From positions 1-28,494 of the forward strand of contig JWZX01003172.1 in assembly GCA_001275005.1 (NCBI GenBank): a DNA stretch of 28,494 nucleotides, written 5' to 3'. Below, piece after piece: positions 1-24,796 of the stretch. Under the pieces are notes generated by a model. It was given only the letters and a program-made list of their open reading frames with translations. It had not been told where the DNA came from and ran no database searches. Made by a program: the position numbers and the translations under genes. Source of the DNA: Chrysochromulina tobinii (taxonomy: Eukaryota; Haptophyta; Prymnesiales; Chrysochromulinaceae). Every line of letters begins with the position of its first letter. Positions within the stretch are counted from its first letter, which is position 1.

Positions 1-218
1 ATGGTGGGGGGGTGGGGGGGAGTCCGCGTCAGGATCGGGTGTGGGAGATGGCGAGAACGTCAAGGTTCGTCAAGGTTCGTCAGGGTTGAGGTGAGCGTCA
101 GGATCGGGTGTGTGAGATGGCGAGAACGTCAAGGTTCGTCAAGGTTCGTCAGGGTTCGTCAGATTGAGGTGGGCGTCAGGGGGGTATGGGCGATGAGCAG
201 CAGCACAGCCTAGGCTAC
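1..218 (-). other. Partial repeat intron 10 or 3' end of giant gene
   Basis: The last visible exon ends AAG|GTAGCC at 219/218. Beyond it the sequence is a minisatellite: a unit of about 69-78 bp beginning GCGTCAGGATCGGG (26, 95) and containing shorter AAGGTTCGTC repeats. On the coding strand these read CTGACGAACC, again with a CTGAY core like the other introns. No acceptor is inside the window. The alternative is that TAG at 210-212 is the true stop and this is 3' UTR. Confidence 0.55.
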
Positions 219-2382
219 CTTGGCCAGCAGCCGCATCGAGAGGCGCATACAGCGCGGCGAGGCGTAATGCCACATGGCGAGCAGCACGCGCAGCCAACGC
301 GTCGTCGTGAGCGCGAGCGCGAGGTCGCCATTCTCGGCACAAGCGTGCACCAACAGCCCGAGCGTCGAGAGCATGCCCTGCTCCGCCTCGAGCCGCGCAT
401 GAGCCTCGCCCATCGCACCCACGCTCATGCCGCCCGAGTCCACTTTGGCGATCTCGCCCTTGGAGATCAGCTCCTCCGCAACAGCAGCCGCCTCGAGCGA
501 CCTCATCGCCGCCTCGTTCGAGAGATGGCGGGGCTCACGCAGGTCGGGCGCTCCGAACGCCGTGCCGGGCGCGCCTTCGGACGACGCGACCATGTCCTCC
601 AAGCGCAACGCAGCGCCCTGAAGCCGCGTGACCAACGAGTCGCAGAGCTCGTCGAGCAGCGCCCACCACGGCGCCCTCGCGCCCGTCTCGTCACTTTGTC
701 CCTCGAGGCGGTTCACACCGCCCCCGAAGCTGTTCACACCGCCCCCACAGCTCGACGCGAGGCTCAGGCTCACCAAGCTCTCCTGTCGCCTCATGCCCCG
801 GGGCGCCGTGGTGGGCGCATCTCCCCCCGGAGATGCCGGCGTGACGCCGCTCGTACCGGTCACACCTGCGGCGCCCGCCACGGCGCTGGACGCGCCGGCA
901 GCCGCCGCGCCGGGCGTGAGGGCGACGGGCGCCGTGGCGGGCGGCTGCAGGCACATCGATGCGAGGCACGTCCATAGGAGTCGGCAGCAATGGGCCTCGC
1001 GGTCGACGCCCCGGCCGTTGAGGCGTAGTCGGCGCATGAGCCGTGAGGTGCACAGCAGCTCACGATCAGGTGTGAACACGGGCATGTGGAGCAACTGCAA
1101 GCCGAGCAGCAGACAGGGGTGGGGTGAGGGTGAGGGTGAGGGCGACCAGGACGCAATCAAGACAGAATCAAGACATAATCAAGACGGCATCAGGACATAA
1201 TCAAGACATAATCAAGACGCGATCAGGACGCGATCAGCGTACCTGCAATGCGAGCAGCCGACAGGTGCGTTCTGACGAAGCGCGAGTGCTCGGCACGGCG
1301 CGCGGCGAGGCCGGCGACAGCCCCTCCGAGGCTTCCAAATATGGAAGAGGGGGTGTCGGTGGCTGCACGGCGCCGCCCGAGACGGCGCCGCCCAAGAGGA
1401 CGCGTGCCTCGTCGGGCGTCGCGTCGTCGGGCTCGATGAGGGTGGTGAGGCCGTCCAGGAGGCAGGCAAACGCGGCGCGCAGGTGCGCCGTCGGCAGCAC
1501 GCCGCATGCCTCGACGTGCGTCAGAAAGTGCGGCTGCGATGGCTCGGTCGGTGCGGGCGGCTTGCGCCCGCCCTTCGACCCCCGGCAGCGCGCGTTCTTC
1601 AGGAGCTCGAGCAAGTGGCAGACGACCTGGGGCGTCGCCGCGTATACCTGCAGCAGCGCCGCACCGATCCGGAGCCAATCAGGAGATGATTGCAATCATG
1701 AAGCAATCAGGAGATGATTGCAATCAGGAGCCCATAAGGAGATGATTGCAATCCGGAGCCAATCAGGAGATGATTGCAATCAATCAGGAGACCATCAGGA
1801 GATGATTGCAATCCGGAGCCAATCAGGAGATGATTGCAATCAATCAGGAGACCATCAGGAGATGATTGCAATCCGGAGACAATCAGGAGATGATTGCAAT
1901 CAATCAGGAGACCATCAGGAGATGATAGCAATCAATCAGGAGACCATCAGGAGGCAATGAACGACACTCGCCTGCAGCAGAGCGGCGCTAATCCGAAACC
2001 CAGCCGCCCGGGAGAAGGCCCGCTGCTGCTGCGTGATCAGGCAATTGTTGAGCTCCTGCACGTCGGGGCGCGAATGCACCCACGAGAGCGCCTCGTCGCA
2101 CAGCGCCGCGCACCGCTCGGCCACCGCACTCGCCGAGCGCCGTGTCGGGCGCACGGGCGCGGCTTGAGGGGCGGACCGCAGCAGCCGATCGGCGAACATG
2201 AAGACCTGCGCGCTCTGGCCGTTGAACTGCTCGTGCTCCGAGATGGCGCGGGCGAGCGAGTCCGCAGCCCTCCAGACCTCTTCAAGGCAGAGACGCACCT
2301 GACTCAAGGAGAAGGACGAGGAGGACGTGGACGAAGAGACGCTGCCGCTGCCGCCGCCTCCGCTGCCTCCGCTGCTGCCTCC

Positions 2383-2416
<34 letters not shown>

Positions 2417-5400
2417 TCGGCGGAGCTCTTGTTGAGATGCATGCCCTCTTCGAGCACCAGCTGCACGCGCGCCATCATCGCATCCGACTCAGACGCCCGA
2501 TACGACGCGACTCGCCATGGAGGCGTCGTGTCGGGCGCCCCGAGCGCCGCATCGAGCGCGCGGCGCACGTCGGCCTCTCCGAGCGCCGTCGCGGCGCTCA
2601 GGATCACCTGTGCCTCGCGCACGAGGCCGGTGTGCACGAGCAGCCAGCCGACCAGCACGGCGCGCGCGCGCTCGAGCTTGGCTAGCGACGTCATGTGCGC
2701 CGGCAGCGGACGGGCTGAATTGGGACGCAGCGGCTGGGCGTCGATGCGGTTGAGCATCGTCACGTGCAGCGCGCCCGCGGCCGACGACGGCAACGGCTCG
2801 CGCCCGCGACGACGCTCGGAGGCAGCGTCGGCGCCCGCGACGGCGCCCGCATCGCGGCTCGAATCTCGCGAATCTCGCGAGATTGAGTCTGGCTCGATCT
2901 GGCTCCATCTCCCCTCCTTGAGATCGGCGAGCAGGAGCGCCGTCTCGGGCGCGACGCCGTGCTCGGCGCTCGGCGCGGCCACGTGGAGCGCCGTGCTGAG
3001 CGGCTGCCCGTGCTCGCGCCCGCCGCCGCCCGCGCCGCCCGCTGGCTCGCCACTTCGCTCGTGCTCGCTCGCTCGCTCAAGGAAGAAGCGGAGCGGGTGC
3101 TCAGCGGGCAACGGCGCCTTGGCATCCCCGCACACGAAGAGCGACGAGCCGAGCCACCGACGCTGCTCCTCATTGCTCTCCTCCGCGTCCAGCAACGGCT
3201 CGCCCGCCAAGAGGGAGCCTGCATGCCGCGCCAGCAGCGCCCCCATGGAGTGCACGAGCAGTGCTGCGGGCGAGGACGATCGCTGATGACGTGGCGGCTC
3301 CCATTGACGAACCTCGATCCGGAAGCCCCAGCGCGGCTCGGCGCTCGAGACGGCGCGCTCGAGACGGCGCCGACTGAGCTCGGCGATCTCGTGACGGAGC
3401 TCGGCGATCTCGTGCAGCTTGGTGCGCGCGAGGCTCCAGCGCTGTCGCGAGCGCCGCTCGGCCGACGAGGGCGCCGTCATGGGCGCCAAGGACGCGACCT
3501 CACCCGACGTGACCGCGACGACGCCCGACGCCTCGGCCACGTCGGTGCCCATGACGGCGCCTGCATCGGCCGCGCCCGACGAGAGCTGTGCCTCGACCAC
3601 TGGCGGCCTCGGAAGCTTCGAGTGCTCGGCTTTGGAAGTGCTCGGCTTCGGAAGCTTCGAGTGCTCGGCTTCGGAAGTGCCCCCACTCCGGACCAGTCGC
3701 ATGCCTCCAGCCAGCAGCTGCGCGCCGCCCTCGCCCTCCTTCTCCATGGCTCCGCCGCCGCCGGCCGGTACCAGCGCCGCCGCCACCTCATCATCTCGGT
3801 GAGATCTCGCCGCCACCTCATCATCTCGGTGAGATCTCGCCAGCTGATGATCCTCCTCCATCGAGCGCATGAGCGCCTCGAGCACCTCATCTTCGTCATC
3901 GCCACCCCGCCCAACGGCCGCCGCCCCAACGGCCGCTGCCCCAACGGCCGCCGACCCAACAACCGCCGCCCCAACGGTCGCCGCCCCAACGGCCGCCGCC
4001 CCAACGGCCGCCGCCTCAACGGCCGCCACCCCAACGGCCGCCGCCGACGGGCTCTGCACGGGCGACTTTGGTCCCAAATTAGGATCGAGTCGCTCGCCGC
4101 TCGTCATGACCAAATTAGGATCGAATCGCTCGCCGCTCGTCATGAGGCAGATGGTGCACTCGTTGCCGGGCAGGATGAGGGGCTTGCGCGGCCAGTGCGA
4201 CGACGAGCCCGCGTACTCGAGCACGCGTCCCGTGCCCGCGGCGACTGCCTTGCGTGCCTCGGTCAGCAGCAGCCGCGCCGCCGCCCCCACATCCTGCACG
4301 CCAGAGGCGGCGCCCGAGGCGGCGCCCGAGGCGGCGCCCGAGGCGGCGCTCGCGACGGCGCCCGCGGAGGACGAGGAGCGCTCGGCACAGCGCTCGATCA
4401 CGCCCGCGAGCAGCTCCGCAGCGACGCGAGGATCTCCCAACGGGCGCAGCTTGAGGCGCGCGGCGCACAGGATGAGGGAAAGATCGTCCGTGGCCGAGTA
4501 CGCGGCCAGGAAGGAGGCGTACGCTTGCCCATAATGGCCTTGGAACTCCTCCCGCCGCGCCTGATGCTCCAAATTAGGCAGCTCCTTGCCCCGAGCAGCG
4601 CCGTCGCGAGCACCGGTGGCGAACGCGGCGAGCTCGGAGTCGAAGGACCAGCCGTTGGGCAGCTGCGGCGCGGGCAGCTCGATGCGCAGCACGTCCGCCG
4701 GGTGCGTCGCACACCTGATGAGGGAGGTCATCAGAGGTCATCAGCGGTCATCAGCAGTCATTAGAGGTCATCAGAAGTCATTAGGGTGCGTCCCACACCT
4801 GATGAGGGAGGTCATCATTAGAGGCCATCAGAGGTCATTAGAGGCCATCAGAGGTCATTAGGGTCGTCGCACACCGAGGGTCGAATGTGAGGCATAGGTT
4901 GGTCGCGCCTTCGAGGCAGATGTGCTGCAGCATTGGCGCTGGCTCGGCTGGCAGTGGATGCTCGGATTCGATCAGAGCCACGTGCTGCGGGGGGTCGGCG
5001 CCCGGTACGACGCCGCTGCGGCCAGCCGCACACGAGGCATCCTTCGGCGTGCCCAGGACGGCGCCGCCCCCACCGGGCGCCGTCGCGAGCGCCGTCGCGA
5101 GCGCCGCCTGCTTAGGTGGGTGCTTCTCCTCGAGCGCCGTCGTGAGCGCGTGCCCGTGCGCCGAGAGGGCGAGCAGCGGCGGGCACGTGGCCGCGGCATA
5201 CAGGGGCGCGCAGAGCTTCTTGGCCCATTCGATGTGCATCAAGGGCATCTGATAGAGCGCATCGAGCGCGTATGGCAGGGCGCGCGCCAGAAAGGTCCGG
5301 TCGAGCGCCGCCTCAGAGAGCGTCGTCCCGGGCGCCGCCTCGGAGAGCGTCGTCCCGGGCGCTACTGCAGTGGTGGTGGCGCCCAGCACGGCGCTCGCCG

Positions 5401-5920
5401 CCTCGAGCATGCCGACGGTGAGTTGGAGCAGCGCACCTGATGAGGGAGGTCATCAGCGGTCGTCAGAGGTCATCAGCGGTCGTCAGCGGTCATCAGGGTC
5501 ATCAGAGGTCATCAGAGGTCATCCGAGGTCATCAGAGGTCATCCGAGGTCATCAGAGGTCATCCGAGGCTATCCGAGGTCATCAGAGGTCATCAGACGAG
5601 CTGGAGCAGCGCACGCGAGGCGTTGGGTATGTCGTGATGAAGCCGATCATCGAGCGACGCCCTTCCACAGAGCTCTTCCACAGCGGCGCATGCCCATATT
5701 AGGATCGAGTCGCCCCCAAACGGCGCCGTCTCGAGCGCGAGCAGCGCCGCGGCATGCGCCCGGAGGGCGCGCACGAGTAACGGCAGTGAATTCCCCACAG
5801 CCGCCGCCGCCGGGGAGAGGTTCCCCACAGCCGGGGAGAGGGGAGCGTTGCCTGATACCGGTACGCTCCGAGTCCCCCCGCTCTCGTGGCTGCCCATGAC
5901 GGCGCTCGGCGTGCCGGCGT

Positions 5921-5955
<35 letters not shown>

Positions 5956-8900
5956 GCGAGCGTGGCCGCGTGCAGCATCGGCACGATCAGAGCGTCGGGC
6001 GCTTGGCCAGTGGGCGCATGCATCCCAACTGGCGGCGGGCAGTGCTCGACTATTTTAGGCTGGGGAGGTGAGCAGTAGAAGCCAACCTTCCTCTTCACAG
6101 CAGGCGCGTCGGCGGCGCCGCTGCTGTGAACACTCGCGGCTGGAGGAGAGGGGGCGGGCACTGGGATCGGCATGAGGGCGTGGGAGGTGCCCGGAGAGTA
6201 GGCGAAGAGGCGAAGGAGCCCGGAAGCGAGCAGCGCCACCGGCAGCGTGGGGCGGGTGGCGGGGGGGAGTGCGTCGAGGACGACGAGGCAAGCCCGGCTC
6301 AAATGCGCTCGCTCGTCGGGGTAGGCGAACCAAAGACGTTCGCCAGCGAGTAGTACCGCAATCGCTTCCGACTGGAGATGGACTCCTAATCGAGCCGAGG
6401 CAACGCCCGGGACGGCGCCCGGGACGGCGGCGCCCGGCGTTGGCGCACAGATGAGCTCGAGGAGGAGCTCGCGCACCTGATGAGGGAGGCCATCAGTGGT
6501 CATCAGAGGCCATCAGAGGTCATCAGAGGCCATCAGAGGCCATCAGCGGCCATCAGAGGTCATCAGCGGCCATCAGAGGTCATTAGCAGCACACCCGAAA
6601 GAAGAGTGGTGGCTCCGCCGACTTGGTCTGCAGGCCGAGCTCCGTCAGAGCGCCGATGTCGAGCGAGGCGCGGCGCAGCCCAAGCAGATGCACGTAGAGC
6701 AGCCGGAGCGCGCACAGGGCTGCCTGAGTGCGGCTGCACAGATATGCGTCGCCGCCGAGCTTGCTGTGGACGCCAACGGCCACCGCGGCTTGTTGTGAAC
6801 GCCCAGGGCCAGTGTGAACACCGCCCATGTGAACAGCAGCGCCGGCCGTTAGGGCCTCGATGAGCCGCGGCTGTGGGAAACCAGCCGAATCGGCCCGAGG
6901 GTCGAGCGAGGCGGAGCTGGGAGGTGTGAACGGAGGTGTGAACGCCGACGGCTCCCTGCCGATCCCAAAAAGCGCCAGTCCCAGAAAGCGCTCACGGGAC
7001 GTGGACGCGTTGGCAGCTCCGAGCGCGCCTTCGGCGCCGGCACCGACCGAGCCTACTACTCCGGCGGCGCCCGGTAGAGGGATGGCGCTCGCTTTTCCTC
7101 CGAGGAGCTCCTCGACGAGGGCGAAGAGCTGCGCGAGCACGCGAGGAACGCCCTCGTGGTCAGCATGCAATGAGGGAGGGCCATCAGCATGCAATCAATG
7201 AGGAACGCCCTCGTGGTCAGCATGCAATGAGGGAGGGCCATCAGCATGCAATCGATGAGGGCCATCAGCATGCGGCCAGCATGCAATCAGTGGCCATCAG
7301 CATGCAATCAGTGGCCATCAGCATACAAATCAGCATACAAATCAGCACGCAATCAGTGGCCTTCACACCTGCGCGAGAGCTCGCGGCGAGCACTCGAGGC
7401 AGCAAAAGCCCCCGAGCCCTCGGACGAGGTCCGGGTGGGGGGGTTGGCCTGCGGCCGTCATGTTCGTGTCCGAGATGGCGGCCAACCGTTCCGAGAGCGA
7501 CGGCAGGCTTGATAAGCTTCGGAGGCTCGCGCGCTCGGTACGGCGCGTGGCTGCGGACGAGGCGAGCCCTTCGGGCTGTGAACGTCCATCGGGCTGTGAA
7601 CGTTCATCGGGCGCGCCCGTCGGCATCGCGAGTGCTGCTGCCAAGGATCCAGTCATCGACGGCATCGACAGCCGCGGCTCAGCGCCGTGCCGAGCGCCTT
7701 GGCCAGCGCGAGTGCTGCTGCCAAGGATCCAGTCTTCCAGACTGGTCGCTTGGTACGCCGCCGCGGCGAGGAAGCACGCGCCCGCACAGGCGGGCGTGAG
7801 CTCGGGGGAAATCTCGGCGTTCCTCGACGCGTCCGCCTTCGATTGGCGACGGCTCGATGGGGCTGTGGGGAATGCATCGAGGAGCGGCGGCGGCGGCAGG
7901 CCGAGCGCTAGAAGCCAAGCCTCTAGACTTACCTGTGGGGAGCGGGCGCCGTGGTGAGCGCTTGCATGCGCGAGGAGTCGGAGACGGCGACTCGAGAGCC
8001 ACCCAAATTTGGACTCGAGAGCCTTGCTCACCATCTCGGGCCGCGAGCTCGCGGGGATCTGGACCGAGCGCGACTGCATGTCGATGGCGTACGCGTGGCA
8101 TAGGCGTGCGAACCTGTGGCCAATAGCCGTGAGGGAGGCCATCCGAGGTCATCCGAGGTCATCCGAGGTCATCCGAGGTCATCAGTGGACGTACCTAAGG
8201 CCCATCAGAGGTCATCAGCGGTCATCCGAGGCCATCAGTGGACATACCTATGGCCCATCCCCGGTGCAGCGGCCGGCGCCGAGCAAGCGCCTTCGGGAGC
8301 CCCTGCAGCGGTAGGCGGCGGCGGCTGTGGGATATTCGGACGGAGCAGCGCACGGGCGCCCGTGAAGAGTGGGCTGAGTGCGCCCGTCGCTTCGGCGAGG
8401 GCGATGACGGATTGGGCAGCCATCCACCACACCTGATGAGGGAGGCAATCAGAGAGGCCATCAGAGAGGCCATCAGAAGCCTTCAGAAGCCATCAGAAGC
8501 CATCAGAAGCCATTAGAGGGCGAGGCAATCAGAGGTCATCAGAGGTCATTAGAGGCCACCATACCTCCGAATGAAGCCCCTGAGAGGCTCGCTCCCGCGC
8601 CTCGCGGCTGCTCACGTCGGTGAGCAATGCATGCAGCGCGATCTCGAGGCTCGAGCTCAGCGGCTCGGGCGCTTGGGTGAGCGGGTGCAGCGAGGTCGAG
8701 AGCGGACCGCCGTTCGCCAACGCGATGCCCCGAAGGGCGCCCGGTGGCAGCAGATCGAGCCGGTTGTGTAGCCGCCAAATGTGCCGACGCTTTGGCCCAA
8801 AGAAGCCTGCATGCAATGAGGGAGGCACACAGAGCCGCAGTCAGAGCCGCAATCAGAAGCCTGCAGCAGGTCGGAGGGGACTCGTCTCTCATCAAGAGTC

Positions 8901-9890
8901 GTCAGCGCTCATCAGCGCTCATCAGCGCTCATCAGCGCTCATCAGAGCTCATCAGAGCTCATCAGAGCTCATCAGAGCTCATCAGAGCTCATCAGAACTC
9001 ATCCGAGCCACTCAAGGCCGCGCACCCGACGTGTACAGTCCCATCGGATCAGTGGGCACCGAGCTCGAGTGCCTCAGTAGTGAGTCCAGCACGTGTCGGT
9101 CGGGAGCGGCCGGGGTGGGTGGGGCGTGGTGCTGCACAAAGGTGGCGTACGCGAGGGCGACGAGGGGCGCGGGCGCGACGCCGCGCCCGAAGAGGCGCTC
9201 CAGGCATGCGAGCTGGATGTGCTGCTGCAACTGTAACCGACGCTCGCGCAGCCCACCTGGCGCATAGCCCTCAAGCTGACCGTGGAGTGAGTGGCGCAGG
9301 GCGCGGTTGAGCGCCGCGCGGTAGTCGGCGGGCCCGACGTGCTGCTCGCTGAGCACGCCCGAGGACAGCAGCAGGAACTCGTTCAGCGGATCCTCACCGG
9401 CCTCGTCCACAGCCTCGATGACTGCATCAGCACTCGTGCGCGGGTCAGCGAGCTGTGTCGTGCGCGTGAAGTGGTCTATGTAAAAGATGCGGCGCGAGCC
9501 GCCCTTGGCGGGCGGCTCGACGCGCTGCTCCCAGCCGATGGGCAGTGTGTGCGACGCGAGCATCTGCGACGCCACCCCTGCAGGGAGCAGGCGCTGCGGC
9601 GCTCGCTCGGCGTGAAAGTGGCCGTCGGGCAGCAGCCGGCTGAGCCGTTGGTAGCGCTCGCGTTCTCCGGGTTCAGCCTCCGGCGGCACTCCGGCGAAGA
9701 GGGCGCGCGTGCCGGTGGGCAGCATGCAACCTAGGTCGCCTACTGCGGTGCGCACTGGGTCACAGGAGGGGAGACGCCTCGACGGCCTCGCCGCTCGGAT
9801 GTCGATGGAAGGAAGAAAAAACTTCTGAAGAAGGCACAGCGTTGCACCGAGCACTTCCTTGTCCAGACTGAGAGTTCTGAGTAGGCGCAT
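219..9890 (-). CDS. Giant multi-exon WW/UIM-like protein, 3' end outside window
   Basis: Exons, read right to left: 9026-9890, 8565-8806, 8248-8432, 7369-8113, 6595-7128, 5615-6476, 4875-5436, 1972-4714, 1243-1647, 219-1094. Every junction joins GT (once GC) to AG and keeps one frame, giving 2,673 codons without a stop. The start is the ATG at 9890; the frame is open further upstream, so an earlier start is possible. A WW domain lies at residues ~116-151 (LPIGWEQ...FYIDHFTRTTQLADPR), but the second Trp is Leu. A near-perfect ubiquitin-interacting motif (DEDEVLEALMRSMEED) lies near residue 1605-1620 (about 3850-3900). The rest is helical Ala/Leu-rich sequence with low-complexity runs, including poly-Gly at 2340-2412 and AAVG repeats at 3905-4040. 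A WW plus a UIM on a giant scaffold recalls ubiquitin-pathway proteins, but no catalytic domain is visible and I do not recognise the family. After residue K (219) the frame meets TAG at once; I read AAG|GTAGCC as a donor into a repeat-filled intron. Confidence 0.8.
1095..1242 (-). other. Repeat intron 9 of giant gene
   Basis: Donor GCATTGCAG|GTACGC and acceptor GGCTTGCAG|TTGCTC, joining LLALQ|LLHMPVF in phase 0. A 22-nt stretch ending in TTGCAG precedes both sites with three mismatches. The body is a run of GTCTTGATTATGTCCTGAT-like units followed by a CCCTCA-rich pyrimidine tract before the acceptor. Confidence 0.87.
1648..1971 (-). other. GC-AG repeat intron 8 of giant gene
   Basis: Donor CTGCAG|GCGAGT (a GC donor) and acceptor CTGCAG|GTATAC, joining AALLQ|VYAATPQ in phase 0. 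About 25 nt of exon sequence ending in CTGCTGCAGG precede both splice sites with five mismatches. The body is a higher-order repeat of about 60 bp at 1740-1940 built from short CTCCTGATTG/CTGATGGTCT units, and contains GATTGCAATC palindromes. Confidence 0.85.
3784..4350. repeat. Cluster of in-frame coding minisatellites in exon 8
   Basis: Four different in-frame repeats lie within 570 bp of the giant gene's largest exon: a 30-bp unit twice at ~3784-3843 (RSHRDDEVAA on the coding strand), a 12-bp CCCAACGGCCGC unit about eleven times at ~3905-4045 (AAVG), a 36-bp unit twice at ~4074-4145 (VMTSGERxDPNL) and a 12-bp GCGGCGCCCGAG unit four times at ~4308-4350 (SGAA). All unit lengths are multiples of three, as expected under coding selection, unlike the 10-bp intron arrays. 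Confidence 0.85.
4715..4874 (-). other. Repeat intron 7 of giant gene
   Basis: Donor CCTCG|GTGTGCGACG and acceptor CATCAG|GTGTGCGACG, with a 10-11-nt duplication. The splice is phase 2 (FDPR|CATHPADV). An internal copy of the whole acceptor region, CTCCCTCATCAG followed by a GTGTGGGACGCACCC variant, lies at about 4785-4811, so the intron looks like two tandem copies of one element. Confidence 0.88.
5437..5614 (-). other. Repeat intron 6 of giant gene
   Basis: Donor CCTCGC|GTGCGCTGC and acceptor CATCAG|GTGCGCTGC. The 17-nt GTGCGCTGCTCCARCTC is present at both ends with one mismatch, the clearest junction duplication in the window. The splice is phase 1 and gives NASR|ALLQLTVG. The body is a 10-bp array of CTGATGACCT and variants, with the CTCCCTCATCAG end. 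Confidence 0.9.
6477..6594 (-). other. Repeat intron 5 of giant gene
   Basis: Donor TTTCGG|GTGTGC and acceptor CATCAG|GTGCGC, joining FFR|VRELL in phase 0. GTGYGC is repeated at the two ends. The body is a 10-bp array (CCTCTGATGR) and the 3' end is CTCCCTCATCAG. Confidence 0.87.
7129..7368 (-). other. Repeat intron 4 of giant gene
   Basis: Donor CTCGCGCAG|GTGTGA and acceptor CTCGCGCAG|CTCTTC share a 9-nt identical exon-side repeat. The splice is phase 0 (ALAQ|LFALVEE). The body has repeats of GGCCACTGATTGCATGCTGAT-like units and a roughly 58-bp segment, including CCTCCCTCAT, present twice near the 3' end (7170-7179 and 7228-7237). Confidence 0.85.
8114..8247 (-). other. Repeat intron 3 of giant gene
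   Basis: Donor GGCCATAG|GTATGT and acceptor GGCCACAG|GTTCGC, so GGCCAYAGGT flanks the intron on both sides. The splice restores PGMGHR|FARLCHAY. A third copy of the donor context (GGGCCTTAG followed by GTACGTCC) lies inside the intron at about 8184-8203 and could act as a decoy donor. Confidence 0.88.
8433..8564 (-). other. Repeat intron 2 of giant gene
   Basis: Donor GGAG|GTATGGTGG and acceptor CATCAG|GTGTGGTGG; the 11-nt junction AGGTRTGGTGG is duplicated at both ends. The splice is phase 0 (HSE|VWWM). The body is a tandem array of CTCTGATGGC-like units and the 3' end is CTCCCTCATCAG. Confidence 0.88.
8807..9025 (-). other. Repeat intron 1 of giant gene
   Basis: Donor TCGG|GTGCGC and acceptor GCATGCAG|GCTTC join in frame (YTSG|FFGPKRR). 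The donor half is a 10-bp tandem array with coding-strand unit GAGCTCTGAT. The acceptor region carries CCTCCCTCAT, and the acceptor context GCAGGCTTCT also occurs once about 60 bp earlier inside the intron. Confidence 0.8.
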
Positions 9891-12893: not shown

Positions 12894-15800
12894 TTACGAA
12901 CCTAAGACAAGGGGCTGGCCCCTGAGTGTTGCTGGCCCCTGTTGCTGGCGCAGGCTGGCCGCGCCGCCTGGCAGGTCGCGCGTGCTGGCGAGGGGCTTCA
13001 TGGGCGCGAGCGCCTTGTCGAGGACGCCATTCGTGGCCATCACCTCCCAGACCCACACGTCCAATGGGTTGAGCGGCGGGCTCTGCGTCCTCCATCCGGC
13101 GAGCAGCTTCTGCATGAGCGGCGCGCGGTAGAGCCACGCAAACGCGTGGAAGGTGGGCCCGACCCGCCGCCAGCCGAAATCTCCGAAATCTCCGATGGCC
13201 TTGGGCCGGCGCGCCCACGACGGCGCCCGCGCGCCCAGCAGGCTTGGGATGTGCTCGGGTTCGCAGAGCTCATAAAAGGGCTCGAGGCCATGTGGGGAAA
13301 GGCAGAGGAGTTGCCACTCGCTGTCCGCCTCGGTTGCGGACGCGACGAGCTCGGGCACGAGTGCAAGCAATTGGAGCGCTCCGCCTGCCAAATCGGGGAC
13401 TACGGCCGCATCGTCCTCGAGGATTAAAGTCCACTCCCAGCCCGCCTCGAGTGCGTGCTGCCAGCACTCGACATTGGAGAGCACGATGCCGACCTCGCCC
13501 GGCGTGAGTCGCCGGCGAGCCCATGCGTCGATTGCATGCAGCTCGTCGAGCGGCAACCCGCCCCCAAGGACGGCTGGCTGCAGCCGCAGCGAGGGCGGCG
13601 GAAAGGGCCACAGATGCGCTCGAGACGGCGCGAGGATGAGCTGCGCGCCTCCTTTGCCGAGCGGCATGGCGTGGTGCACTGCCGTGTGGGTGCTCAGGCA
13701 GAGGAGGCCTAGGCCTTCACACAGCCGCCTCTCTGCGGGATCGAGGTCCTCTGCCCCGCGCTGCCAAATGGTCAGAGCGAGGCCGCGAGCGTATTTGCGC
13801 TGCGCCGGCGAGAGCCAGCCGAAGACCTCGGGGAAAGGTTTGGACTGGAGGGCCCTAGGCAGGTTGGGACCGAAGATGCGCTCCTCGTCGCGCGGCGGGA
13901 AGACACCCGCGTCGCGTCCCTCGCGCACCTGATGAGGGAGCCAATCAGAGGTGATCAGAGGCACTCAGAGGCAGCGGTCATCTCATCAGAGGTCCTCAGA
14001 GGTCCTCAGAGGTCCTCAGAGACCATCAGAGGTCATCAGAGGTCTCCTCGAAGGTCCTCAGAGGTCCTCAGAGGTCATCAAGGGAGATCAATGGAGATCG
14101 CACCTCCGCCTGCTTGAGGCGCGGTTGGGCCGCCGACCAGATCGATCCGAATAAGAGCTGCTCTTCATGCCCTAAATTGGTCCAGCCTCGCGCCGCCACA
14201 CGCTCGAGGAGCGCCTCGGCGCGATCTCGGCTCGTCTCGGCGCGATCTCGGCTCATCTCGGCGCGATCTCGGCTCATCTCGGCGCGATCTCGGCTCATCT
14301 CGGCGCGATCTCGGCTCTTCCTCATCTCCTCAGTCAGCGCCGGCGGTGGCGGCTCTGCGGCCGGTGGCAGCAGCTTGCGAAGCAGTGCGAGCTTCTGAGC
14401 ATACGTGAGCGCCTCTTGCCGTAGGAGCTGCTGATGGTTGATTGCGGTGCCCATCATCCCCTCGCGGCTCTCCCGCTCAGCCGCCTGGAGCCATCGGAGA
14501 CCATCAGAGACCATCAGAGGCCATCAGAGACCATCAGAGACAATCAGAGACCATCAGAGACCATCAGAGACCATCAGGGACCATCAGAGACCATCAGTTG
14601 CACTCGGTCGCACTCAGTGGCACTCAGTGGCAATCAGTGGCAATCAGTGGCAATCAGTGGCAATCAGTGGCAATCAGTGGCAATCAGTGGCACTCGGTCG
14701 CACTCGGTCGCACTCAGGGGCACTCAGCGGCACTCAGGGGCACTCAGGGGCACTCAGGGGCACTCCGCGGCACTCAGCGGCTACCTTGAGCTGCTTGAGC
14801 TCGTACGAAACTTTGATGAGCAGCTCGCGTATCTCGCGTGAGCTCGGGTTGATCTCCTGCGCTTGCACGAGCGCCGCCCATGCCTCCCGTGGGTTGCCGA
14901 GGCCTACGTGCGCCTGCCACCCGATGAGCGTCGACAATCAGTGCCATGGGCAAGCCAAGGCAAGCCAAGGCAAGCCAAGGCAAGCCAAGGCAAGCCAAGG
15001 CAAGCCACGGCAAGGAGTGGCACTCACCTGACCCATCCGGAAGTATGCCTTGGCGCGCTGCGCGGCGGGCGGCCCCGCTTGCAACACCTCGGCGCAGCAG
15101 CGGAGCGCCGTCGTGAGCGCAGTGGCGAGCGACCCCCCCTCGCCCGCCTGGGCGCCCGATACGTTGCCCAGCTTGAGGTGACACGCGGCTGAGTTGAGTA
15201 GGCACGGCACGCGAACCTGTTGGATGGCAGGTAGGTCGTCCGAGCCGAGGCCGCGCTTGTGATCGCCCAGCTCCGCGGCTTGCTGATCACGGCACAGGTT
15301 GGCCATCTCATACCTGGTAGGGGTAGTAGTAGACACCCCGAGCGCAGGTCATCAGACGCAATCAGAGCTCATCAGCGACACTCCTGCAGGTCATCAGACG
15401 CAATCAGAGCTCATCAGCATACTTGAAGAGATCGAGCGCATACTGGTACTCATCGAGGGCATCCTGGTACTTGCCCTCGCTAAACTTGTCGTTGCCCTCA
15501 TCCTGTAGCGAGAGCCACGGCACACTCAGAGGCGCACTCAGAGGCGCACTCAGAGGCGCACTCAGAGGCCATAATTGCACCTTGAGCATCTCAGCGGCGG
15601 AGAGGCGGTGCGCGAGGTTGGATCGTGCCTGAAGGAGCCACATCTGCTGCAGCTGCTGCTTGGTCGCCGGGCTCATCTCCGCCCGGGCTGATGCGTAACG
15701 ACTCTCCCTCAGGTCACGTGGACACAGCTCAACTTCCACAGCTGCCCTCTCCTCAGCCGAGACCGAGTTGCCAAATATGGACAAGGGCCCTGACGCGGCG

Positions 15801-22157: not shown

Positions 22158-22295
22158 ATCAGACGCCGCTCTTTTTCGTAGCCAGACCACAGCCAGAGCC
22201 TCGCGATTTTTTTAATTTTAGTTTTTTCCATTTTCGAACGCGTTGCTTTGCGACTCGCAGCGCGCAGGGATCGGCGCGGGGTCCTTTCGCGGTCA

Positions 22296-23261
22296 ATGCG
22301 CTCGCTCGTCCTGGCGCTCCTCGCTGGCGTGTGCCTGTGTGAAGAAGCGTGGCTCCGCGAAGAGGCGTGGCTCCGCGAGAACGCCGCACGAGAGAGCGTC
22401 ATCCAGCTTGCTTCCGGTGTCCAGTACGAGGTCATCATGAGCGCTCCGCCCAGCCGCCTGAAGCCCATGAAGGATCAGCAGTGCAAATGTCACTGGACCG
22501 TGGCGCTGACGGATGGGACCGTTTTCGACTCGACGCGCGAGAAAGGCATCCCGCAGGTAGTGGTTCCGTACAATGTCCCGGTCGCAGGCTGGGCCGAAGC
22601 TCTGCAGCTCATGTCGCCGGGCGACCGCTGGAAGCTCTTCATCCCGTCCAAGCTCGCCTACGGTCCCACCGGCACCAGCGACGGGATCCCGCCGGACGCA
22701 ACGCTCATCTTTGACCTGGAGCTGATCGAGCTCGGCGAAGCACCCTACACGTTTACAGGTCTACCTGTGGCTCAGGACAGGGCGTTCATGTGGGTGGGCG
22801 GTCTGATCATCATCCTCTACTATTACTACAACGGCTCGAGCGGCCGCAAGATGGTGAGCGCCAGCCATATTCTCGTGGCTGAAGAGGCCGTGTGCGCCAT
22901 GCTGAAGAAGGAGCTGGACAACCTGGCCGGTTCGGAGCTTAGCCTGGAGACCGTGCAGCACAAGTTCGCAGAGCTCGCCCAGCAGCACAGCACGTGCCCT
23001 TCGAGCAAGAAAGGTGGCTCTCTCGGCAGCTTCGGGCCGGGCAACAATGCTCCCAAATTCGACGAGGTGTGCTGGTCGGCACCGATTGGCGTGGTGCAGG
23101 GGCCCGTTCAAACCGGCGCCGGTTTCCATCTCATCCTCGTCACTGAACGAAAAGAGTACGCTGTGACGGGTCGCACCGTCGTCGCGAAGACACCCACCCC
23201 CGCCGAGCTCGCCGAGCAGGTCAAGCAGGCCAAGCGATCCAAGGGGCAGAAGGCCAAGTGA
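22296..23261 (+). CDS. Secretory-pathway FKBP-TM-parvulin fusion, copy 1
   Basis: 321 residues from ATG 22296, chosen because a signal peptide follows at once (RSLVLALLAGVCLC); upstream open sequence has no ATG. It has two peptidyl-prolyl isomerase folds. The FKBP domain (~53-147) has TVFDS with D78, GWAEALQLM with W99, KLFIPSKLAYG with Y122 and LIFDLELIEL with F139. A membrane span (~163-179) ends in a Tyr run. The parvulin domain (~186-285) has SASHILV with H191, C234 in HSTCPSSKKGGSLGSF, FDEVCW and GFHLILV with H278. The tail is Lys-rich. The topology probably puts the FKBP domain in the ER lumen and parvulin across the membrane, unless the span is buried or cleaved. An EAWLRE segment is duplicated in tandem at residues 17-27. 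FKBP plus parvulin in one chain is uncommon. Confidence 0.88.
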   Translation: MRSLVLALLAGVCLCEEAWLREEAWLRENAARESVIQLASGVQYEVIMSAPPSRLKPMKDQQCKCHWTVALTDGTVFDSTREKGIPQVVVPYNVPVAGWAEALQLMSPGDRWKLFIPSKLAYGPTGTSDGIPPDATLIFDLELIELGEAPYTFTGLPVAQDRAFMWVGGLIIILYYYYNGSSGRKMVSASHILVAEEAVCAMLKKELDNLAGSELSLETVQHKFAELAQQHSTCPSSKKGGSLGSFGPGNNAPKFDEVCWSAPIGVVQGPVQTGAGFHLILVTERKEYAVTGRTVVAKTPTPAELAEQVKQAKRSKGQKAK

Positions 23262-23887
23262 GGCGGCCACGCTGGTTCGTCACCGCATTCGGCAGGAAGC
23301 TGCAGGAAGCTGCTGATCGAAAGCGGACGCCAGAGCCAAGGAGCATGCATGAGCATGATGCCAAGGCCCGAGGAGTTCTCATGGGGGTTCTCTTCTCATG
23401 TAAATGTACTACATGCCCAAAGGACACAGAACTGAGGAGTGAGGACTGAAGAGTTGGCATGGATACAACTGGAATATCAGAGACGAGAGAGGTGACACGT
23501 TTCACAGCACTACTTGAGTGAGCGAGGCAGGCGAGCGCGCCATGTGCCTTTTCACACCAATCACGATGGTCTCTAACACTTACACTAAGAATCCTAAGAG
23601 ACTCTTGCAAGAGACTCTCGCATTGTAACACTAAGCATTACTAAGTTGGTGACATATTTGAAATTTTGAATCTGTGGTCGTTTGTTGAGCGACTCACAAC
23701 ATGAGACGTACAAGTAACCGTTCTGGACCGACTTGACTTGACTTGACTTTACATGACCGCAGAATGGCCCGAAAGTCTTCGCGGCGCTCGCCTTTTGCGC
23801 TTCCTCCCGGCCCCGCGGGAGACACCACCGACAGACCGCGGCCGTCTCCGATTTTGCCTCCATCTGCACCTAACCAAGCGTCCGTCG
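23262..23887. other. Intergenic region between the FKBP-parvulin copies
   Basis: 626 bp, AT-richer than the flanks in its second half (23560-23750). It contains a short CTTGA tandem run at about 23731-23749. No convincing gene is present. It should hold the terminator of copy 1 and the promoter of copy 2; the 5' non-coding sequences of the two copies do not look alike. Confidence 0.5.
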
Positions 23888-24796
23888 ATGTATCCCATGC
23901 GCGCGCTTGTACTGGCCCTGCTCGCTGGAGCGGGCCTGTGTGACGATGCGTGGCTTCGCGAGAACGCCAAAAAGAAGAGCGTCGTTCAGCTTCCCTCCGG
24001 TCTCCAGTACACGATCATCGAGAGCGCTCCGTGGGACGAGACGCGCAAGCCCACAAATCACCAGAAGTGCAAATGTCGGTACACTGGCACGCTGATTGAT
24101 GGGACCGTTTTCGATTCTTCGCAAGATGGAGAGGATATGAGCTCGGCGATCTTTGCCCCGGCCGATGTCATTGCAGGCTGGACTGAAGCTCTGAAGCTCA
24201 TGTCGCCGGGCGACCGCTGGAAGCTCTACATCCCATCCAAGCTCGCCTACGGTTCCCGCGGCAACGTTCACATTGGCATTCCGGGGGACGCCACGATCAT
24301 CTTCGATTTGGAGATGCTCGAGATCCTCGAGGAATCGATGCTCGACAAGCTTCTCGACCAGTATCAGTTGTTCATCATCGCGGGCAGCACGATGGTCGCA
24401 CTCTACTTTTACTTCACCGGCGGCGTGGTGAGCGGCAAGACGGCGCACGCGTGCCACATCCTCATGTCTGACAAGAACCTGTGCGCCAAGCTCAAGAAGG
24501 ACCTCGACACGCTGGCCGCCGCGGGGCTCAACCAACAGGGCCTCTTTATCAAATTTGGCGAGTTGGCCAAGGAGCACAGCACCTGTCCCTCGAGCAAGAG
24601 CGGTGGCTCACTTGGCGTCATCGCGCCCGGGGAGATGGTGCCCGCCTTCGACGAGGTGTGCTGGTCGGCACCGATTGGCGTGGTGCAGGGGCCCGTCCAG
24701 ACCGAGTTCGGCTTCCATCTCATCCTCGTCGCGGCGCGGATATCGGCCGAGGAGAATGAAGCGGAGCAAAAAAGGGAGTCGTCTAAGTCCAAGTAG
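23888..24796 (+). CDS. Secretory-pathway FKBP-TM-parvulin fusion, copy 2
   Basis: 302 residues from ATG 23888 (a second ATG at 23897 aligns exactly with copy 1); the ATG at 23753 would add 45 residues in front of the signal peptide and is unlikely. The order is the same as in copy 1: signal peptide (ALVLALLAGAGLC), DDAWLREN, FKBP domain (~55-147; DGTVFDSS, GWTEALKLM, KLYIPSKLAYG, IIFDLEMLEI), membrane span (~158-177, LFIIAGSTMVALYFYF) and parvulin domain (~185-283; ACHILM, HSTCPSSKSGGSLG, FDEVCWSAPIG, GFHLIL). It arose by tandem duplication with copy 1. Near-identical nucleotide blocks in both domains against diverged surroundings suggest strong constraint or gene conversion. The linker and span differ most. 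Confidence 0.87.
   Translation: MYPMRALVLALLAGAGLCDDAWLRENAKKKSVVQLPSGLQYTIIESAPWDETRKPTNHQKCKCRYTGTLIDGTVFDSSQDGEDMSSAIFAPADVIAGWTEALKLMSPGDRWKLYIPSKLAYGSRGNVHIGIPGDATIIFDLEMLEILEESMLDKLLDQYQLFIIAGSTMVALYFYFTGGVVSGKTAHACHILMSDKNLCAKLKKDLDTLAAAGLNQQGLFIKFGELAKEHSTCPSSKSGGSLGVIAPGEMVPAFDEVCWSAPIGVVQGPVQTEFGFHLILVAARISAEENEAEQKRESSKSK

Follow-up and report, generated by a model that had tools for sequence, protein, structure and literature searches.

The genome of the haptophyte Chrysochromulina tobinii (GCA_001275005.1; 53.15 Mb in 2,253 contigs) contains a large and partly recent family of spliceosomal introns which, with a probability that we put at roughly 0.6, has spread by templated insertion of a cassette carrying the branch point and the 3′ splice site, the template being either DNA or RNA. 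Members of the family interrupt a minus-strand gene in the first ~9 kb of contig JWZX01003172.1 (C2013), a stretch of 28,494 nucleotides (nt) referred to below as the window, and are dispersed through the genome. The 3′ parts of these introns are shared between genes, in some cases together with passengers derived from exons. The introns are associated with duplicated exon sequence, their removal restores the reading frame, microhomology is present at the 5′ junction, and one locus shows a presence/absence difference at the protein level. A preliminary description of the window had proposed a recently gained, introner-like family flanked by duplicated exon sequence, produced either by target-site duplication or by tandem duplication of AGGT-containing exon segments, an interpretation that is partly supported by the present analysis.

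A dispersed family with a shared 3′ cassette

The terminal motif CTCCCTCATCAG occurs 1,799 times genome-wide (1,586 copies before G and 213 before other bases), a count of motif copies rather than introns, in which serial copies inside one intron enter repeatedly. GT follows directly in 1,208 of the copies, and backward-read controls for the three patterns of the motif gave 0, 6 and 0 occurrences. A shorter form, CCTCATCAGGT, is found 2,093 times as against 8 in its control. Across 39 scanned loci, 47 of 52 copies (serial copies included) agree with the cassette at 31 or more of its 34 positions, and similar sequence is present in introns of unrelated genes. Some loci hold tandem arrays of a unit composed of duplication plus cassette (44-79 nt; L122, L135, L136, L152 and L155), and at C815:10204-10326 motif copies are spaced 22 nt apart; these arrangements may reflect slippage, or unequal exchange, at direct repeats. 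Intron bodies on the same contig have a mean identity of 0.46 (109 pairs) versus 0.40 on different contigs (7,370 pairs), a set that still includes serial tandem copies, and this similarity was not used as a sign of local spawning.

Exon duplication and frame restoration

Duplication and splicing were assessed in a sample of 124 distinct sites, at loci mostly picked by the 3′ motif. A donor-like target follows the cassette at 109 of them (GT at 96, GC at 13). At 72 of the 124 sites the opening of the downstream exon is found again upstream with a score of at least 9, compared with 5.4% when exons were exchanged, and at the stricter score of 12 the figures are 59 of 124 and 1.5%. Serial copies are included among the 72 rows of alignments. 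Only this anchored test was used, since an unanchored repeat search over 163 sites had a high background, 16% among exchanged pairs at a score of 12. The preliminary description had pointed to a genome-wide search for the end motif and its repeats, and the searches made here gave the 1,799 motif copies and, among sites selected by motif, the 72 with a duplication.

These introns have a characteristic layout, in which the copied exon comes first, followed by the cassette, its CAG end and then the original exon. Where a duplication was found, the 5′ part of the intron matches the local exon and not the family, and similarity to both splice boundaries is absent. The effect of splicing on the reading frame was assessed by codon scoring of the flanks, trained on nine sequences of which one (with 15 stops) was skipped; once serial sites and short flanks had been dropped, 47 sites were testable. 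Of these 47 sites, 37 join in frame; among the 38 whose frames are confident the figure is 34 (one third expected by chance, p ~1e-12), and the intron lengths themselves fall in all three classes modulo 3.

Variable insertions with a common 3′ end

Within 47 sites, the duplication is 9-39 nt long (median 22), where 9 nt is the detection limit and 40 nt the upper limit, and is identical at 20. With a longer limit it reaches 63 nt (L151), so its length is not constant. Inserts in the same sites range from 23 to 319 nt (median 74). Copies that share the cassette TCTGAGTGCATGCTGATTGCCTCCCTCATCAG start at differing points, the shortest insert extending only 26 nt after the duplication (L138), and no common 5′ start was seen by eye in 19 listed rows with inserts of 26-238 nt, at least two of which span serial copies. 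The 3′ end behaves differently. In a search made without motif selection, with a query running 24 nt beyond the CAG, 61 of 64 matches stop at positions 48-55, CAG being at position 50; the other three are C1912 itself, C1853 and C1665.

The three nucleotides that close the duplication at the 5′ junction fit the predicted cassette context at 9.7 of 22 usable sites, compared with 0.7 and 1.6 in two controls; the remaining 25 of the 47 sites have no predictable cassette context and lie outside this test. Shared target prefixes among similar-bodied introns were considered as a test of a DNA template and dropped, the sample having been chosen in part by a target-fixing pattern and the trend being confounded.

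Traced copies and exon passengers

Several inserts can be tied to a probable source. An intron on contig C19 matches C395 at 98% over 61 nt, with a second copy identical over 58 nt, and ~28 nt of this match derive from an exon of the C395 gene, where they are still present in the downstream exon (96%). The C1912 intron, in a gene that appears by eye to be kinesin-like, is copied exactly over 44 nt at C1745 and over 49 nt at C1853. The C1853 copy extends 8 nt beyond the C1912 acceptor into the exon and has a copy of a different 22-nt target on each side; frame scoring there favours splicing at an AG within that target. On C380, the insert fuses ~20 nt of its own gene's upstream exon to the cassette, and a 66-nt piece of it is matched at C992 (97%). 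We infer the direction of copying from which locus has the sequence as native exon. Carry-over of exon 14-mers into introns gave 12 rows, with none in the control, of which L119-L011 and L147-L129 alone were used, both having been checked further; the other rows, short or of low complexity, may be chance.

A separate match at C1665:17318-17384 aligns with the C1912 intron-exon query at 84% over query positions 9-74, past the acceptor, and may be either a paralogous exon or a further overshoot.

Intron gain in AcuI and the HSP90 comparison

The gene for AcuI (acrylyl-CoA reductase) on C180 contains a 110-nt intron with an identical 36-nt duplication, and within this intron the duplicated exon stretch occurs once more. 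A relative protein of 377 residues, P0241, is 95% identical over 99% of AcuI and uninterrupted at the intron site, which indicates that the gain is recent. P0241 is one of 40 clustered sequences, which come from 7 contigs of at most 28,980 bases, and a motif spanning the intron site was matched in 58 of 120 listed relatives, the other 62 failing the motif.

The intron of cytosolic HSP90 (L111, C2146, ~1395-1500) has a degenerate family body, TGCTGATTGCCTGCCTCATCATGGTGAGC, with a different acceptor further on. One protein, P0121, differs from HSP90 in this intron stretch; it reads into the intron, from which we infer that the ENA gene caller worked without splicing. Another, P0125, is the HSP90 protein with the intron removed and matches the spliced HSP90 at 100%; given its short contigs, it may come from transcripts. 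The best named relatives of HSP90 from this genome are Calcidiscus leptoporus (96%), Emiliania huxleyi (95%) and Tisochrysis lutea (94%), which places the organism among the haptophytes.

Introns of the window gene

Chance values for the window introns were obtained by aligning each donor to its own acceptor in register and comparing the score with those of 18,521 GT/AG pairs drawn at random from this 9.5-kb region. The seven duplications listed in the preliminary description are all present on the minus strand, with alignment scores of 8-15.5 and chance values of 0.0005-0.007 per intron, and the best-scoring coding frame is consistent across the seven predicted junctions, each of which keeps the frame. 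Its statement that one copy lies in exon and the other in intron was likewise borne out.

In three of these predicted introns the duplicated block begins 0-2 nt from the junction and extends downstream. The intron at 8433-8564 (132 nt, GT-AG, ending in CTCCCTCATCAG) has AGGTRTGGTGG at 8556-8566 and 8424-8434 (11 nt, one mismatch, p = 0.0046). At 5437-5614 (178 nt, ending in CTCCCTCATCAG), the 17-nt duplication GTGCGCTGCTCCARCTC occupies 5598-5614 and 5420-5436 (one mismatch, p = 0.0006). The third, at 4715-4874 (160 nt), has GGTGTGCGACG at 4865-4875 and 4705-4715 (11 nt, identical, p = 0.0009) and contains a second, internal CTCCCTCATCAG, a serial copy.

The block lies mostly upstream of the junction in the other four. 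At 8114-8247 (134 nt) it spans 8246-8258 and 8112-8124 (13 nt, two mismatches, p = 0.0069), placing the acceptor AG inside the duplicated sequence. At 7129-7368 (240 nt) it is CTCGCGCAG, at 7369-7377 and 7129-7137 (9 nt, identical, p = 0.0037), and the intron interior holds remnants of CTCCCTCAT. A GC-AG intron at 1648-1971 (324 nt) carries tandem repeats of ~60 nt and has its block at 1971-1995 and 1647-1671 (25 nt, five mismatches, p = 0.0007). For the intron at 1095-1242 (148 nt), which has a small upstream frame margin (3.8), the block lies at 1243-1265 and 1095-1117 (23 nt, three mismatches, p = 0.0005). The splicing favoured at an AG within the target at C1853 links this upstream-of-junction class to the same process.

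Two further minus-strand introns end in CTCCCTCATCAG. One, at 6477-6594, was not listed in the preliminary description and has a weak duplication, GTGYGC (~6 nt, by eye). The automatically picked donor for its acceptor, at 6715, fails the frame test; of the nearer GTs, 6594 passes and 6592 fails. The other, at 13929-14103, lies outside the range previously described and has a weak 7-nt duplication (p = 0.017), with the frame kept. In all, CTCCCTCATCAG terminates five of the nine window introns. The preliminary description read the low divergence of the copies as a sign of recent gain. This holds for part of the family, as the 20 of 47 identical duplications and the AcuI gain indicate, but within the window only two of the seven claimed introns have identical duplications.

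The bodies of the window introns are low-complexity decamer arrays, and the scanned part of the gene (1936-4737) gave no Pfam match. Decamer-like arrays are also found at 8888-9008, 14491-14781 and 15349-15417 (CTCATCAGAG, CCATCAGAGA and ATCAGTGGCA), in the intron-bearing and neighbouring minus-strand region, and these lack an exact CTCCCTCATCAG end. Near the contig end, positions 26-156 hold 1.9 copies of a 69-bp repeat unit with 98% identity. Elsewhere in the window, 22182-23261 and 23747-24796 are adjoining paralogues, each apparently a fusion of FKBP and parvulin (PPIC) prolyl isomerase domains, which were confirmed for the first and judged by eye for the second.

A model of cassette insertion

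The mobile part of the family would be a cassette from the 3′ region of an intron, made of one or more CTGATNNCC-like units followed by the CTCCCTCATCAG acceptor. The CTGAT, or CTGATNNCC-like, motif is one that we take to be branch-point-like. In the proposed process, an existing copy would be the source of a segment of ~26 nt to a few hundred nt that is inserted into an exon, and 9-63 nt of target would end up on both sides. With a target beginning in GT or GC, the first of the two target copies would serve as the donor while the cassette supplies the branch point and acceptor, and splicing would restore the exon exactly. In a target with a suitably placed AG, the AG of the second target copy would act as the acceptor instead. 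Selection for clean splicing could then explain why donor-like targets are so frequent (1,208 of 1,799 copies before GT; 109 of 124 sites with GT or GC). This splice logic, with the cassette providing branch point and acceptor and the reread exon the donor, follows from the sequences themselves; the copying step is more conjectural. Repair or replication synthesis may switch template through short microhomology to the cassette and then return to a point upstream of where it departed. Template switching of this kind would account for the variable duplications, 5′ microhomology, exon passengers, chimeric inserts and serial arrays.

The more specific proposition, which we hold tentatively, is that these introns multiply without a transposon: a cassette of ~26 nt at minimum would be copied by the cell's own repair or replication machinery through microhomology-guided template switching, picking up pieces of host exon in the process, and would be retained where the reread exon gives a donor. 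If so, splicing competence alone would be the selectable property that turns a repair by-product into a mobile family with ~1,800 copies of its 3′ end. It has long been asked how introns multiply, and this numerous family has an insertion anatomy unlike that of DNA-transposon introners. Exon passengers tie some of its introns to likely parents and thereby open the copying step to study copy by copy.

Several observations weigh against spread by templated cassette insertion. Ten of the 47 testable sites are not joined in frame, four of them with confident frames, and 52 of the 124 sampled sites have no duplication at a score of at least 9. The copies were selected by motif, except in the C395/C19 trace, the 3′-end query test and the C380/C992 trace. 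Splicing of the window gene is a prediction from sequence. The controls for microhomology take no account of a duplication lengthening by chance, for which we estimate a few per cent at 3 nt. Insert length shows no correlation with the mismatch between the duplicated copies (rho 0.08, p = 0.60, n = 47), and the idea that young inserts are short and lengthen with age was dropped on these figures. Overshoot past a parental splice site is seen in one clear case, the empty site is a single locus at the protein level, and the near-constant 3′ end is equally expected from an RNA-templated process.

Alternative explanations

An RNA-templated route could take the form of target-primed reverse transcription (TPRT) of excised intron RNA, or of a piece of pre-mRNA, with the reverse transcriptase supplied in trans. 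The RNA 3′ end at CAG would join the nicked target, an early stop would leave a variable 5′ end, and a second nick would produce a variable duplication. A common 3′ end, a variable 5′ start, a duplication of variable length fixed at its left edge and 5′ microhomology all fit this scheme, and this pattern of ends and duplications is the signature of TPRT. The genome also has 26 matches to the reverse transcriptase domain RVT_1, 24 without internal stops and 22 above the curated cut-off, several in reading frames of more than 1,700 residues. At the 12 loci examined among the 26 reverse transcriptase matches, however, C[TC]CATCAG is absent from the plus strand of the stretches covered, and one locus has its reverse complement. 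TPRT explains the common 3′ end as well as template switching does, but does not easily explain the C1853 insert, which passes the C1912 acceptor by 8 nt into the exon, or the C380 insert, in which the cassette is attached to an exon piece of the gene that hosts it. The C1912-C1853 overshoot in particular lowers the case for excised-intron RNA as sole template, and we regard TPRT as rather unlikely. Intron RNA could also be reverse-spliced into DNA or into other transcripts, a route proposed for fungal introner-like elements. A common 3′ end at the acceptor would again result; reverse splicing should, however, insert a whole intron without target duplication, whereas here the 5′ part varies and the target is duplicated, making it most improbable.

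Mobilisation as a DNA-transposon introner, similar to a miniature inverted-repeat transposable element and with target-site duplication, would match one class of Gozashti et al. in its splice logic, in which the element provides the 3′ site and the duplicated target the 5′ site (PMC9860276, in the part consulted). Some copies also show, by eye, a short inverted pair, CTGATGA...TCATCAG, in their last 20 nt. Duplications of 9-63 nt, no fixed 5′ end seen and exon-derived passengers nevertheless leave this explanation highly unlikely. In the preliminary description, then, the introner-like family and its recent gain hold up, through the 1,799 motif copies, the 72 of 124 duplicated sites and the intron-free AcuI relative, but not a fixed target-site duplication of the kind left by a fixed-end transposon, given the range of duplication lengths, the fact that no fixed 5′ end was seen and exon-derived inserts in three traced cases. 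Its other suggestion, that an exon segment containing AGGT was simply duplicated in tandem, here taken with later expansion of repeats, would account for direct exon repeats that start at GT and for the unit arrays at L122, L135, L136 and L155. It fails on the copied cassette that sits between the exon copies: the same cassette pieces recur between repeats at unrelated loci, which local duplication cannot supply, and its probability is accordingly very small. Chance repeats, microsatellite growth in old introns or assembly errors, with no intron creation at all, might be suspected from the low-complexity decamer bodies in the window and from tandem unit arrays that could be assembly-sensitive. 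Such an artefact is practically negligible as an explanation against duplication at 58% of sites versus 5.4% in the exchanged-exon control, frame agreement at 34 of 38 sites and an AcuI relative that has no intron.

Comparison with known systems

Insertions of retrotransposons without long terminal repeats (non-LTR) and of short interspersed elements (SINEs) show a common 3′ end, a variable 5′ start, a variable target duplication and 5′ microhomology. The C. tobinii family shares all four features. It differs from non-LTR elements and SINEs in that no tail shared with a long interspersed element was found at the 12 loci examined, and in having one overshoot into an exon and a cassette of as little as 26 nt.

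Intron gain by break repair in Daphnia, for which part of PMC3443670 summarises Li et al. (2009), similarly places short direct repeats around inserts of other origin. Repeats occur there at 43% of gained introns, and no shared cassette is described in that account, whereas one cassette family is involved here. Gain by tandem genomic duplication, described in the same source, also doubles an exon segment at donor and acceptor in an AG/GT context, but in C. tobinii a foreign cassette lies between the two copies. The introner elements of Amoebophrya likewise have border direct repeats of varying length, and their authors rule out general transposase-mediated mobilisation (PMC7789003, in the part cited). 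Those elements combine 3-5 nt direct repeats and 8-20 nt inverted repeats with largely non-canonical splice sites, in contrast to the long direct repeats and GT/GC-AG boundaries seen here. Comparison extended to parts of work on Micromonas (PMC3879977), the Diacronema genome (PMC8379373) and a 2025 survey of intron repeats (PMC11782384). In the introner and intron-gain literature on haptophytes, Chrysochromulina, template switching, variable-length duplication and break repair, this family was not found in the titles and abstract openings among the matches listed.

The largest survey compared, that of Gozashti et al. (2022; PMC9860276, in the part consulted), describes 548 introner families, most of them consistent with DNA transposition. 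As in that survey, which includes Chrysochromulina sp. among its examples, similar introns are dispersed over unrelated genes, and as in its Symbiodinium example, the element carries the 3′ site and the duplicated target lends the 5′ site. Unlike those introners, the present introns share their 3′ part alone, often have low-complexity bodies and are flanked by duplications of 9-63 nt, compared with the 3-9 bp given for previously characterised DNA-type families. The pipeline of that survey demanded similarity near both intron ends and discarded low-complexity families, so that, judging from these filters, it would be expected to drop introns of this kind. We therefore place the C. tobinii family with introner-like intron gain and not among the DNA-transposon introners.

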